This document shows, piece by piece, positions 56,725 to 64,000 of a DNA stretch of 64,000 bases (the first letter of the stretch is position 1; the number at the start of each line of letters is the position of its first letter). Source of the DNA: Terriglobia bacterium (GTDB lineage: Bacteria > Acidobacteriota > Terriglobia > Terriglobales > Acidobacteriaceae); assembly GCA_020073105.1 (NCBI GenBank), contig JAIQFW010000005.1:1-64000 (forward strand), read 5' to 3'. The position numbers and the translations under genes are program-made. The notes below the pieces were generated by a model, which saw only the letters and a list, made by a program, of their open reading frames with translations, had not been told where the DNA came from and searched no databases.

Positions 56725-57798
56725 GTGAAGACTGCTGACGGCTCGATCAAAGATTCTGACGGGAAGATCATATTCTTCAGCTTTGATCGATTCATGTCCG
56801 ACATCGTCCGGGGCAACTGTTGCTTCATCTGTGGAGTAGGACCAAAGGATGCTACGTTCAACGACGAGCATGTTCTTCCTGACTGGCTACTCAGAAAATA
56901 TCGACTGCATGATAAGAGCGTCACTCTCCCAAACGGCACACAATTCCGATATGGCGGGTTTACGGTTCCGTGTTGTGCTCGGTGCAATGCTCTTATGGGG
57001 GAGCAATTTGAAAATCCGATAAGAGAGCTATTCGCCAAAGGATCCGACGAAGTTAACCGGGAACTCAAGGAAAACGGACCTTGGAGGCTCTTTTGCTGGA
57101 TGTGTCTGATTTTCGTTAAGACCCACCTGAAGGACCAGTCCCTTAACCTTCATCTCGACCGTAGAAAGGGCAATGAGAAGATTGGGGAATTGCACGATTG
57201 GGGCCAGCTTCATCACATACATTGTATGGCCCGATCTTTTTACACAGGTTGTGAACTCAATGCGGAAACGATGGGTTCGCTCCTCGTGGTGCCTGCGAAG
57301 GTTCGTTCTCACTACGAGAGTTTTGACTACGTCGATCTTTCATTTGCCAGGACCATGTTACTGAGAATAGATGAGATCGCTGTTATTGCGGTCTTGGACG
57401 ACTCCCAAGGAGCTCTTAATATCTTCTCAGAAAAGCTAAACATGATAGGCGGCCCTTTGTCTCCCCTGCAAGCAAGAGAGATTGCGGCTCACTTCGCTTC
57501 AATCAATCTCCAGTTAGCGGAAAGGACTGTATTCGCGTCGGAATTCGATATTCTGACAGACAAATGCACAATCGTCGCCCGTCGCCCGCATCAACTAATG
57601 TTGTCTGACTGGAACAGTGAGATTCTAGGGGGAATCATGCATAGAATTTGCGATGAGATGCTTGTGGTTTTTCCAAACAAAGACGAAATCTCGGAGCAAA
57701 TCAAAACTGGTCGCCGTACGTTCTTGGTCGACGACAATGGCAATTTTGTAACGAACAGCATGGAACTAGAAGAAAACGGTTCCCATCAAGGTGCTTGA
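56725..57798 (+). CDS. HNH-like zinc protein, AT-rich accessory gene
   Basis: 357 residues. CCFICGVGPKD, NDEHVLPDWLL and CCARCNALMGEQFENP form the zinc-ribbon plus histidine core of HNH endonuclease-like proteins. The remaining 260 residues match nothing I recognise. Codon use and base composition are clearly AT-richer than those of the neighbours, which suggests recent transfer. It has no partner gene here. A nuclease or defence role is possible but unproven. Confidence 0.72.
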   Translation: MKTADGSIKDSDGKIIFFSFDRFMSDIVRGNCCFICGVGPKDATFNDEHVLPDWLLRKYRLHDKSVTLPNGTQFRYGGFTVPCCARCNALMGEQFENPIRELFAKGSDEVNRELKENGPWRLFCWMCLIFVKTHLKDQSLNLHLDRRKGNEKIGELHDWGQLHHIHCMARSFYTGCELNAETMGSLLVVPAKVRSHYESFDYVDLSFARTMLLRIDEIAVIAVLDDSQGALNIFSEKLNMIGGPLSPLQAREIAAHFASINLQLAERTVFASEFDILTDKCTIVARRPHQLMLSDWNSEILGGIMHRICDEMLVVFPNKDEISEQIKTGRRTFLVDDNGNFVTNSMELEENGSHQGA

Positions 57799-58182
57799 CC
57801 CCGACCCGCGTAAAAGTGGTCGTTCCAAATTAAGTCCGGCTTGCCTCCGGATCGACCATCTGCAATTCTCCGGGACACTCAGAAGAACGAATCGAGGGCT
57901 GGTCCGCCCCAACCTCCAACTCCAGCCTCGAGGGTGCCTCGTCCAAACTACGCTTGGGCGGGGTGTTCATCGACCACTTTCTGGTTCGTGGCTGTGGGCG
58001 CTCCACGGCGCCGAATCGCCCGCAGGCAGGCGCTCCGGTTCCACCGCTGGTCTCCCATCCTGTGACGATCCCGTGACAATAACTTAACAAGTTCCACCGC
58101 ATCTTCGCTGGCTGCTTATCCATCCAACGCTGTAGCCGGATCAGGATGTTCTGGCAGAGTCCGGCCAAAAGGAGAATCGGCG
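57799..58182. other. Intergenic region before the small-ORF pair
   Basis: About 380 bases. Open frames on both strands are present but lack family features and have poor start signals. The sequence around 57960-58060 is palindrome-rich (for example GGGCGCTCC-ACGGCGCC). The stretch 58065-58095 (GTGACAATAACTTAACAAG) is AT-rich and could hold the promoter of the next genes. Confidence 0.4.
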
Positions 58183-58275
58183 ATGTGGATGCGAAGCTGT
58201 GCGGCGTGCCGGCGGTTACTCAGAAAGCTGAGGTTATGCGATCAGATCCGATGCGAATGCGGGTGGGAGTGGTAA
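58183..58275 (+). CDS. 30-residue zinc-ribbon-like microprotein
   Basis: ATG 58183 has AAGGAG 8 bases upstream. The peptide begins MWMRSCAACRRLLRKLRLCD and ends CECGWEW. The CxxC ... CxC pairs and the terminal Trp residues look like a minimal zinc ribbon. It ends 4 bases before the next small ORF. Too short for standard gene finding; supported by the strong ribosome-binding site, Cys spacing and the coupling. Confidence 0.55.
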   Translation: MWMRSCAACRRLLRKLRLCDQIRCECGWEW

Positions 58276-58279
58276 CGTC

Positions 58280-58399
58280 ATGGCAAAGGTAATCGAGTTT
58301 TACGTGCCGGACCGGTTCCGAAAGACGGGACCCTGGATTCCTCCGGAACAACGTGGCAAGGTGATTGAGTTTCCATCACCGCAGAAAAAGTCTGCCTGA
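58280..58399 (+). CDS. 39-residue MAKVIEFY-type small protein
   Basis: The peptide begins MAKVIEFYVPDRFRKTGPWI and ends GKVIEFPSPQKKSA. The VIEF sequence occurs twice, once near each end. I recall short proteins with this start in other acidobacteria, but cannot check. It is basic and probably soluble. Start 4 bases after the stop of the 30-residue ORF, so the two are probably translated together. Confidence 0.6.
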   Translation: MAKVIEFYVPDRFRKTGPWIPPEQRGKVIEFPSPQKKSA

Positions 58400-58484
58400 A
58401 AATCACGGGACACGAAAGTGTGCTCGCCTAAGCCAAGTTTTTGTTCAGCTATCAGTTTCGATATAGTTGGCCAGGAGAAATGGT

Positions 58485-58982
58485 GTGCCCGACACAGCCG
58501 AGTACCTCGCCCGTATACGCCAGCATGTCCAAGCGAAGGAACCGCTAGCCCTGCAAGAGGAGACGCCAGGGGTTTTGGCGGAACTGATCGCGAACAAATC
58601 CCATCAGCAGCTCACTACACGGCCAAGCAAGGACAAGTGGTCGGTCTGCGAAATTCTTGCGCACCTGGCGGAAGACGAAATTGCCACGGCATGGCGCTAT
58701 CGGCAGATGGTGGAGCACGGCGGGATCGAACTCGCCGGGTTTGACCAGGACCTGTGGGCAAAAATGGGGAGCTATGCGGCACGGGTGCCGCAGGAGTCCC
58801 TGGAACTGTTCCGATTACTTCGTACCGCCAACCTGCAATTCCTGCAGCAGCTCTCGCCGGAGCAGTGGGAGTGCTTTGGCATTCATGCTGAGCGTGGCCG
58901 GATCACGGTCAGGGAATTGGCCGCCCATATGGCGGGACACGACATCAATCACGTCGAACAAATCCGCAAGATCCTGGGCTGA
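58485..58982 (+). CDS. DinB-like (DinB_2) metal-binding four-helix protein
   Basis: 165 residues from GTG 58485, with AGGAG 7 bases upstream; a TTG at 58467 is less likely. WSVCEILAHLAEDEIATAWR and ELAAHMAGHDINHVEQIRKI provide the three conserved histidines of the DinB fold. Proteins of this family include thiol-dependent S-transferases; the exact reaction is not indicated. Confidence 0.85.
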   Translation: MPDTAEYLARIRQHVQAKEPLALQEETPGVLAELIANKSHQQLTTRPSKDKWSVCEILAHLAEDEIATAWRYRQMVEHGGIELAGFDQDLWAKMGSYAARVPQESLELFRLLRTANLQFLQQLSPEQWECFGIHAERGRITVRELAAHMAGHDINHVEQIRKILG

Positions 58983-60239: not shown

Positions 60240-61712
60240 TCACTGCCCAGGCTTGGCCGCCGGCGCTTCTTCTTTCTCCCCCGGAGGCGGTGGAATTGTG
60301 ATGTCAACGTTAGTGACCGCGCCGAGCGAGGACAGCGGCTTGTCGAATTCCGAAGTATTACCCACGACCAGCACGGCGAGCTGGTCTTTGTGGAGGTACT
60401 TGGTCACGACCCGTTCTACGTCGGCCTTCTGCACCTTCTCGATCGCACTTCGAAAACGCTCCAGGAAATCCGGTGGATATCCATAAAACTCGTAGGCCAT
60501 TTTCTCGCGCAGGACCTTCTCGGGCGAATCGAAGTTGAAGATGAAGGAATTAAGGATGGAGTCTTTGGCGCGCGCGATCTCGTCGTCCGAAATCGGGTTG
60601 GTCTTTAGCTTGTCGATTTCCTCGTACAGTCCCTGGATCGCCTCGACGGTACTTCCGCTCTTGGTGCCCATCGCCAGCCGCACCACTCCCACATGGTCAA
60701 AGGCGCTGCCGATGCCGCCGCCTACACTGTAGGCAAGCCCCTTGGCGGTTCGGATGCTCTGCACCAGGCGCGCGGCAAAACCGCCACCGAAGGCTTCGTT
60801 GAAGACCTGCGCGGCGAAGTAATCAGGATTGTCACGGCGGATGCCCAGTTCGACCATGCGGATGTTGCTCTGGTTCACGTCGGATTTCGGAATCAGGTAG
60901 TAGCCGGGCTTGGCGGGAGTGAACTGAATATCGGACGACTTCGCGGCCGGACCCTTGGCCCAGTCTCCGAAGACCTGGCGCAGCTTGGCTTCCATGGCGA
61001 CAGAATCAAAGTCTCCAACCACGCCCAGAATGATGTTGTTGGGATAGACATGGGCATGGTGCCAGTCGAGTAGATCCTGCCGTGTGACTGCCGCAATGGT
61101 AGCGTACTCGGCCTGGCGGGCGTAAGGATTGTCCTTGCCGTAGGCCAGCTTCAGGGATTCGCGACCGGCAATTTCGCCAACATCGTCGTTCCGGCGTGAT
61201 ATCGAGTCGGCCATTTCCCGTTGCGCGAGATCGAGCTTGTCGGCGCGAAATTCGGGATTGCGCAGCAGGTCGATGAAGACCTTGAAGACGTCGTCCAAAT
61301 CACTTTTCAGGCAGGACCACGAAATCGTGGTGGAGTCGGCCGTGTTGTTGGTCTCGACCTTGGCTGCCCGGACTTCGAGGAAGTCGTCGAGTTGATCGCC
61401 CGTCTGCGACTTGGTGCCGCCGGTGCGCCACACTTCACCGTACATATCGAGCATCCCGGTCTTGCCGGCGGGTTCGGAACGCGACCCGCCTCGAATGCGT
61501 GCGGTGCCGTCGATCAGCGGCAGTTCATGATCTTCCTGCAGAAAGATCACCATGCCGTTGGGAAGCTCGATGCGTTTGGGTTGCTGAGGATGGAAGACAT
61601 GCAGCGGCGGAATGGGAACCTGCTTCCAATCGGTGGCTTGGGCGGCTAAGCGAGGTGTCGGCAGACAGGCGGCCGCAAGCAGAACGGTGAAAATCAGCGC
61701 ATGCCGTCTCAT
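60240..61712 (-). CDS. M16-family peptidase subunit, non-catalytic
   Basis: 490 residues with a signal peptide (ALIFTVLLAAACLPTPRLAA). The M16 fold is clear (RIELPNGMVIFLQEDHELPL, AYGKDNPYARQAEY), but the zinc motif HxxEH is absent: the corresponding segment reads GMLDMYGEVWRTGGT. It is therefore the inactive partner that completes a heterodimeric clamp. The start overlaps the stop of the catalytic gene by four bases (61709-61712). Probably a periplasmic peptide-degrading complex. Confidence 0.88.
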   Translation of the reverse strand: MRRHALIFTVLLAAACLPTPRLAAQATDWKQVPIPPLHVFHPQQPKRIELPNGMVIFLQEDHELPLIDGTARIRGGSRSEPAGKTGMLDMYGEVWRTGGTKSQTGDQLDDFLEVRAAKVETNNTADSTTISWSCLKSDLDDVFKVFIDLLRNPEFRADKLDLAQREMADSISRRNDDVGEIAGRESLKLAYGKDNPYARQAEYATIAAVTRQDLLDWHHAHVYPNNIILGVVGDFDSVAMEAKLRQVFGDWAKGPAAKSSDIQFTPAKPGYYLIPKSDVNQSNIRMVELGIRRDNPDYFAAQVFNEAFGGGFAARLVQSIRTAKGLAYSVGGGIGSAFDHVGVVRLAMGTKSGSTVEAIQGLYEEIDKLKTNPISDDEIARAKDSILNSFIFNFDSPEKVLREKMAYEFYGYPPDFLERFRSAIEKVQKADVERVVTKYLHKDQLAVLVVGNTSEFDKPLSSLGAVTNVDITIPPPPGEKEEAPAAKPGQ

Positions 61713-63232
61713 TGCGCACCTCCCTGGCTGGCTTCAGCCGGGGGTGGGCCGGCGGTCTCAATGATGCCCACCGTTCGATTGTTGGCGGTGAAAGTCTGAT
61801 TGGCCACGCGGCGAATGTCGGCCTTGGTGATCTTATCGATGCGGTCCACCTGGCGGAACAGCTCGCGCCAATCATCATAGCGCGCTTGGTTGATGCCGAG
61901 TTGGAACGCCAGACCCGAGTTGCTGTCCAGGCTGCGGATCAGGCCGGCCTTGGCTCGAGTCTTAATCATCTTCAGCTCATCGTCGCTGATGTCTTCCTTC
62001 TTGAGTTTGTCGATCTCGGCGTGGATTGGCCCGGCCATGTCATCCGGCTTGTGCCCGGGAAGAGGGAACGCATAAAAAGCGAAGAGGTGGGGATACTTAT
62101 TTCCGGGCAGGCCGGTGAAACCCGCCGAATAGGATGCGATCTTCTGGTCGCGTACCAGAGCGCGGTATAAACGCGAAGTCCGGCCTTCCGACATCAGGTC
62201 GGCGATCGCGTCGTAGACGGCATCATCCGGACTGCGGTAATCCGGCCGGTGATAGCCCTCGAGGTAGAGCGGCTGCGATTGCTCGCGCAGCACCACCCGG
62301 CGCTCGGAATTCTGCGGCGGCTCGGTGGTGGTGCGGTCATCGGGCTTGGCGTGCGATGGAATGCGGCCAAAGTACTTCTCGATGATGGGCATGGCGTCGG
62401 CGGCCTTCACGTCGCCGACGACGGTCACGATCATGTTGGAAGGAACGTAGTACTCGTCGAAGAACTTCTGCGCATCCGTAGCGGAAAACGAGTTCAAGTC
62501 TGACATCCAACCGATAGTTGGGCGATGGTATTGGCTGGCCTGAAATGCTGCAGTCGTGAATTGCTCGAGCAGCCGCCCGATGGGGTTGCTGTCGGTGCGC
62601 ATGCGCCGCTCTTCGATGACGACGTTGCGCTCTTTGTAGAATTCCCGCATTACCGGGTGCATGAAGCGTTCTGAATCGAGGTAGGCCCAGAGTTCGAGCC
62701 GGTTTTCGGGCAACGAGTAGAAATAGTTGGTTTCATCCTCGTTGGTGGACGCGTTGATGTTTTCTCCTCCGTTGCGCTCCAGGATCTCATCGAACTGGTT
62801 GGGAATTACGTACTGATTGGCGTCTTTGACAGCGCTTTGCCAGGCGGCTTCGAGCTGCTTGAGCTTCTGCTCGTCCCGGCCGATGCGCTTGTCACGTTCT
62901 TCGAGGTACGCAGCGTAGGCGGTCTCGACTTTTGCGAGTGCAACCTTCTCGGCAGCGAAATCCTTGGTGCCGATCTTGTCCGTGCCCTTGAAGGCCATGT
63001 GCTCGAACATGTGGGCCAGGCCGGTCTTGCCGAGCGGGTCTTGGGCTGAGCCGGCGTCCACATGAGTGTAAAAAGAGAAGACCGGGGCCTCTGGCCGCTC
63101 GCAGACCAGGACGGTCAAGCCGTTGTCGAGATTCTTAAGCGTGATGCGTTTCTCGAACGAGGCGATATCCTGCGCGGCGGCAAGGGTTACTGCGAAAACG
63201 GTGATTAAAATTGCGGGGAAACGGCGTTTCAT
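61709..63232 (-). CDS. M16-family zinc peptidase, catalytic subunit
   Basis: 507 residues with a signal peptide (AILITVFAVTLAAA). GLAHMFEHMAFKGT (about residues 73-86) contains the inverted zinc motif HxxEH, and the third ligand Glu lies downstream in NEDETNYFYSLPENRLELW and the following EERNVVIEERR-type region. It degrades short peptides in a closed chamber. An insertion (AYLEERDKRIGRDEQKLKQL) after the zinc motif lengthens the N-terminal lobe. First gene of the two-gene operon. Confidence 0.9.
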   Translation of the reverse strand: MKRRFPAILITVFAVTLAAAQDIASFEKRITLKNLDNGLTVLVCERPEAPVFSFYTHVDAGSAQDPLGKTGLAHMFEHMAFKGTDKIGTKDFAAEKVALAKVETAYAAYLEERDKRIGRDEQKLKQLEAAWQSAVKDANQYVIPNQFDEILERNGGENINASTNEDETNYFYSLPENRLELWAYLDSERFMHPVMREFYKERNVVIEERRMRTDSNPIGRLLEQFTTAAFQASQYHRPTIGWMSDLNSFSATDAQKFFDEYYVPSNMIVTVVGDVKAADAMPIIEKYFGRIPSHAKPDDRTTTEPPQNSERRVVLREQSQPLYLEGYHRPDYRSPDDAVYDAIADLMSEGRTSRLYRALVRDQKIASYSAGFTGLPGNKYPHLFAFYAFPLPGHKPDDMAGPIHAEIDKLKKEDISDDELKMIKTRAKAGLIRSLDSNSGLAFQLGINQARYDDWRELFRQVDRIDKITKADIRRVANQTFTANNRTVGIIETAGPPPAEASQGGAQ

Positions 63233-63409: not shown

Positions 63410-64000
63410 ATGGCGGCCAAGCCACAAATCGTCGAAATTGATGGCAAGCACCTCAGCTTGACCAACCTGGACAAGGTCCTTTATCCCCTGGCCGGCTTCA
63501 CCAAGGGGCAGGTCATCGACTATTACGCCCGCATTGCGCCGGTGCTGGTGCCGCATCTGGCCGGGAGGCCGCTCACGCTGAAGCGATATCCAGAGGGAGT
63601 GGACAAAGAATATTTTTTCGAGAAGAACGCCACCAAGCACCGTCCCGACTGGGTGAAGACCGCGCCAGTCTGGAGCGAACACAATCGGCGCAACATCCAC
63701 TACCTTCTGGCCAACGACCTGCCCACGCTGGTCTGGATCGCAAACCTTGCCGGCCTGGAACTGCATCCGTCGCTCTCATTCGCCAGGGACATCCCGCGTC
63801 CGACCATGATGGTGTTTGATCTGGATCCCGGGCCGCCCGCCAACATTGTGCAGTGCTGCCAGGTCGGACTCTGGCTGCGAGAGATCTTCGAGCACTTTGG
63901 ATTGCAGAGCTTTCCCAAGACTTCGGGATCGAAGGGACTGCAGATTTATGTTCCCTTGAACACGCCGATCAGCTACGACGTCACCAAGACTTTCGCAAAC
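63410..64000 (+). CDS. ligD: LigD-type NHEJ polymerase domain protein, 3' end cut by window
   Basis: 197 residues visible. LTNLDKVLYPLAGFTKGQVI and DYYARIAPVLVPHLAGRPLT open the LigD polymerase (primase-like) domain. FDLDPGPP provides the catalytic Asp pair (residues 137 and 139). KTSGSKGLQIYVPL is the triphosphate-binding motif, with Gln in place of the usual His. LigD polymerase fills and extends ends during Ku-dependent end joining. Ligase or nuclease domains, and ku, would lie beyond the window. Confidence 0.9.
   Translation, partial: MAAKPQIVEIDGKHLSLTNLDKVLYPLAGFTKGQVIDYYARIAPVLVPHLAGRPLTLKRYPEGVDKEYFFEKNATKHRPDWVKTAPVWSEHNRRNIHYLLANDLPTLVWIANLAGLELHPSLSFARDIPRPTMMVFDLDPGPPANIVQCCQVGLWLREIFEHFGLQSFPKTSGSKGLQIYVPLNTPISYDVTKTFAN

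Follow-up and report, generated by a model that had tools for sequence, protein, structure and literature searches.

Towards the end of the window, as we term the 64,000-nucleotide stretch of DNA analysed here from a member of the Acidobacteriaceae (Terriglobia bacterium, contig JAIQFW010000005.1), there is, on sequence grounds, a genuine two-gene microprotein operon. The first gene (ORF1; 58183..58275, forward strand) encodes a zinc-ribbon-like microprotein of 30 amino acids, MWMRSCAACRRLLRKLRLCDQIRCECGWEW, with a CxxC-x14-CxC pattern formed by cysteines at residues 6, 9, 24 and 26. The second gene (ORF2; 58280..58399, forward strand) encodes the 39 amino acid VIEF microprotein, MAKVIEFYVPDRFRKTGPWIPPEQRGKVIEFPSPQKKSA, in which KVIEF occurs twice and KKSA forms the C-terminus. 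The cysteine pattern and the repeated motif described in the initial annotation are both present, and its proposal that two real genes were missed because of length cut-offs is borne out by purifying selection in both frames, a paralogous pair and profile E-values for VIEF down to 1e-24. The strong ribosome-binding site that it reported applies to ORF1, which is preceded by a predicted AAGGAG site (58169..58174, forward strand, 8 nt before the ATG) and most of whose relatives also have a purine-rich site upstream, but not to ORF2, for which we found only a weak GGGAG, located in the final bases of ORF1. Overall, the case for coding, conservation and linkage is strong.

The pair lies just downstream of a gene for a 357 amino acid protein with CxxC motifs (56725-57798, forward strand), which has a weak N-terminal match to HNH_5 (E 0.0006, below cut-off), and 67 nt upstream of a DinB_2/YfiT-like gene (58467-58982, forward strand). 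Farther along are two adjacent M16 (insulinase-type) peptidase-like genes on the reverse strand (60240-63232) and the start of a gene that we judged by eye to be LigD polymerase/ligase-like (63410-64000, forward strand), which runs out of the window.

A profile search of 398 genomes from the window's family found VIEF in 63, at 1-7 copies each. A phylum-wide search of 396 genomes returned only three weak partial matches beyond members of the family, none of them credible; named relatives belong to the Acidobacteriaceae/Terriglobia and nearly all come from metagenome-assembled genomes. Across 67 distinct VIEF loci the start, the frame, VIEFY(I/V)P, RGKVIEF and the terminal KKSA are mostly kept, and the median dN/dS is 0.22 compared with 1.26 and 1.17 in the shifted frames. 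Besides the window copy, its own genome has two further good copies, 90 and 64% identical to it. The 90% identical copy is itself preceded by a copy of ORF1, and dN/dS between the window VIEF and this nearest paralogue is 0.06. A mobile element was considered and rejected, given that, apart from the ribbon, no gene recurs at most loci and that similarity between the window copy and its paralogue spans only about 360 nt. ECF sigma-factor genes were not enriched near VIEF (0.030/kb within 1.5 kb versus 0.029/kb farther out). In several other genomes (loci L038, L082, L087, L093 and L099) a solo VIEF gene follows immediately after a gene for a related M16 peptidase, and in a single genome VIEF adjoins pstS. 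A literature search found no paper containing the peptide sequence MAKVIEFY.

We also considered whether VIEF is a general C-terminal tag on other proteins, and rejected this since local profile matches were fragments or ribbon fusions, except for one pair in genome G262. These paralogues (L252, C197:554-844; L254, C138:6978-7268) are short membrane-like ORFs that carry RVIEFYVPDNLREN near the C-terminus, with RVIEFYVPDN near the end of both; elsewhere, 199 genomes gave one marginal match. The motif in the two ORFs is possibly borrowed from VIEF.

The ribbon gene is present in 40 of the 398 genomes of the family. We selected 31 intact members for having all four cysteines, which makes C6, C9, C24 and C26 constant by definition. 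Also invariant among them are W2, R4, G27 and W30, and the four cysteines are likewise invariant in 13 members that were not selected in this way. Median dN/dS for the 31 intact members is 0.10, compared with 1.6-2.2 in shifted frames. C19 varies among relatives, and the ligand set is therefore most simply taken as the CxxC plus the CxC. The four invariant cysteines fit a pair of zinc-binding knuckles, from which we infer zinc binding.

The two genes are linked in a fixed order. At 21 of the 67 distinct VIEF loci an intact or decayed ribbon precedes VIEF in the same orientation; the downstream and antisense control positions have none. By genome, 31 have both genes, 9 the ribbon only, 32 VIEF only and 326 neither (Fisher p 8e-21, this value and the linkage counts being uncorrected for relatedness). 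The 4 nt between the ORF1 stop and the ORF2 start, noted previously for the window, is correct there but is not a conserved feature, the start-to-start distance ranging from 92 to 267 nt across linked loci. The pairing itself stands as to order, yet either gene can occur without the other: roughly two thirds of VIEF copies are solo, and ten or so ribbon genes lack VIEF. At six loci (L077, L078, L097, L107, L108 and L116) the ribbon has decayed, by frame-shift or loss of cysteines, while VIEF is intact; this repeated decay suggests that VIEF does not need the ribbon and can act alone. At least four distinct natural fusions (L124, on the minus strand, L134, L139 and L151) join the ribbon to a C-terminal VIEF half, as ribbon then (R)GKLIEF...KKSA, for example MWMRSCALCKALLRKPRLWDSIRCQCGWEW-LGHPEDRGEIIEFHASTKKSA. 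Peptide sequences and gene order are thus both kept in the genomes searched, so that the lack of conservation named in the initial annotation as evidence against the pair is not what these genomes hold.

Upstream of the pair there is good evidence for a shared promoter module. Alignment of relatives placed three putative half-sites with an 11-bp period, GTGACGA-tccc-GTGACAA-taac-TTAACAA, at 58062..58089 on the forward strand, an arrangement like a PhoB/OmpR-type response-regulator box. They are followed on the same strand by GCATCT (58099..58104), possibly a -35-like element, for which G(C/T)A(T/C)C(C/T) recurs 8-9 nt past the second half-site, and by a candidate -10-like element, CCATCCAA (58120..58127; consensus G(A/C)(A/G)TCnAA, about 46-47 nt from the start of the box). 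A TTGACA-type half-site pair scoring at least 14 was found within 170 nt upstream of 11 of 35 ribbon genes, compared with 0.35% of 868 background windows; the box is present at about 11-12 of the 35 and so is not universal. Searching 24 genomes with TTTGACAATCAAWTGACA, allowing up to two mismatches, gave 29 sites versus 1 for the reversed pattern. Of the 34 distinct sites, 19 are followed by the exact G(A/C)(A/G)TCnAA, which in 17 lies at 46-47 nt; about 2% would be expected by chance. Box sites also lie ahead of genes whose products are exported, among them a DUF3455 protein and a ferritin-like protein that carries a twin-arginine-like leader; the signal peptides and the leader were called by eye. 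In a subgroup of solo VIEF genes (L038, L080, L082, L087-L090, L093, L099 and L101) the ribbon-type box is replaced by a strongly conserved GCATCTAAnTAGGTAATTG about 85 nt (75-92 nt) upstream, perhaps another promoter class.

The same genomes offered a comparison for the box. Most of the pstS genes that we examined (L180, L188-L212) are preceded by an 11-bp direct-repeat box (TTTGTAACnnTCCTTTAACA-like), which is apparently the Pho box of this clade; a literature search found no paper on a Pho box in Acidobacteria. The pst box and the ribbon box have in common 11-bp direct half-sites upstream of the promoter and differ in the half-site itself, TGTAAC/TTTAACA in the former and TTGACA in the latter. 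As the 11-bp architecture is shared and the half-site is not, a PhoB-family regulator acting at the box of the pair is plausible. A narrower reading, in which the peptides belong to the Pho (phosphate-starvation) regulon and act in phosphate stress, would account for the common architecture and for three ribbon loci (L076, L111 and L071) that fall in the top 0.5% with a matrix built from pst boxes, but we think it unlikely given the difference in half-site and the majority of ribbon loci that do not score with that matrix.

Neither microprotein could be assigned to a known family. The window proteins had no match in Pfam, PHROGs or PADLOC and a chance-level match only in NCBIfam, profiles of the ribbon and of VIEF found no chain in the PDB, and a fused relative gave a sub-threshold PHROG match (E 0.09). 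AlphaFold returned a low-confidence model of the ribbon (pLDDT 65) and a model of VIEF (pLDDT 75) that lacks strands and has no helix reaching four residues; this predicts that VIEF is disordered insofar as a single model with a pTM of 0.21 can be relied upon. The closest Pfam family was Zn_ribbon_RPAB4 (PF03604; RNA polymerase 7-kDa subunit), which did not match the window ribbon protein and whose best score, in one of 13 relatives, was 17.9 bits, below the curated cut-off of 24. The likeness in that relative covers residues 6-27 (C..C...IRC.CG). The knuckles of PF03604 are two CxxC, whereas in the ribbon the second knuckle reads C24-x-C26 throughout the 31 intact members. As for the earlier suggestion of a translation or transcription modulator, no finding pointed specifically to either machine.

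A closer parallel in layout is Ruc (Rv0991c) of Mycobacterium tuberculosis, in which a four-cysteine zinc domain is joined to a disordered tail that the protein requires in order to act (PMC7448276). The fused ribbon-VIEF forms, the only ones with a tail, resemble this arrangement in having a four-cysteine, putatively zinc-binding domain followed by a C-terminal part that is predicted to be disordered. On that basis the ribbon could, like Ruc, be both a redox switch and a chaperone, the disordered tail having been split off as VIEF. We regard this as quite improbable: Pfam and PDB searches detected no homology between Ruc and the ribbon, the N-terminal zinc domain of Ruc is about 50 amino acids long as opposed to 30 with another cysteine spacing, the tail of Ruc is highly variable where that of VIEF is conserved, and head and tail form one protein in Ruc but are usually encoded by two genes here.

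Two further readings are disfavoured. A toxin-antitoxin system, or another selfish or defence module, would fit the multiple copies, the patchy and dispersed occurrence and the frequent loss of one member. It is nevertheless very doubtful, in view of the empty PADLOC and PHROG searches, the fact that VIEF alone is the commoner state, and some solo copies that keep the same M16 peptidase gene upstream across genera and are under purifying selection. The same-strand DinB-like gene past VIEF in the window might suggest that both peptides are leaders, translated in order to regulate the next gene. This is highly improbable and largely refuted, because the strand of the next gene matches at 36 loci and is opposite at 30, there is no fixed position before a same-strand gene, and the amino acid sequence is kept across unrelated downstream genes.

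The reading that we prefer, tentatively and at somewhat less than even confidence, is an adaptor mechanism in which a zinc-binding head and a disordered partner with two motifs are expressed from a response-regulator-type promoter. The 30 amino acid protein would fold around one zinc ion to form the head, and VIEF would be an unstructured peptide offering two short docking motifs and the conserved KKSA tail, binding the head, a cellular partner (RNA polymerase, ribosome, protease or other) or both. The pair would then act as a small cytosolic adaptor turned on by a response regulator. Because the same regulon would also drive exported proteins, the pair would probably come into play under envelope or nutrient stress. 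In solo VIEF copies the same two motifs would serve for docking, with no head and under other promoters.

A more specific and rather unlikely extension of the adaptor mechanism treats the VIEF proteins as lineage-specific, interchangeable docking peptides, whose double KVIEF would bind one hub machine and for which the ribbon would serve as a regulated head, in trans or fused; up to seven copies per genome would each have their own promoter. If true, such a split, swappable adaptor, assembled from proteins of 30 and 39 residues, would represent a new kind of regulation by small proteins.

Microproteins of fewer than 50 residues are largely missing from annotations, and most predicted ones are indistinguishable from noise. 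The two described here have no curated family, yet they show purifying selection, paralogues, conserved order, fusions and what appears to be a shared promoter motif. Their function can thus be tested in the soil Acidobacteria, which are abundant and little understood, and the pair may provide a way into an undescribed regulon.
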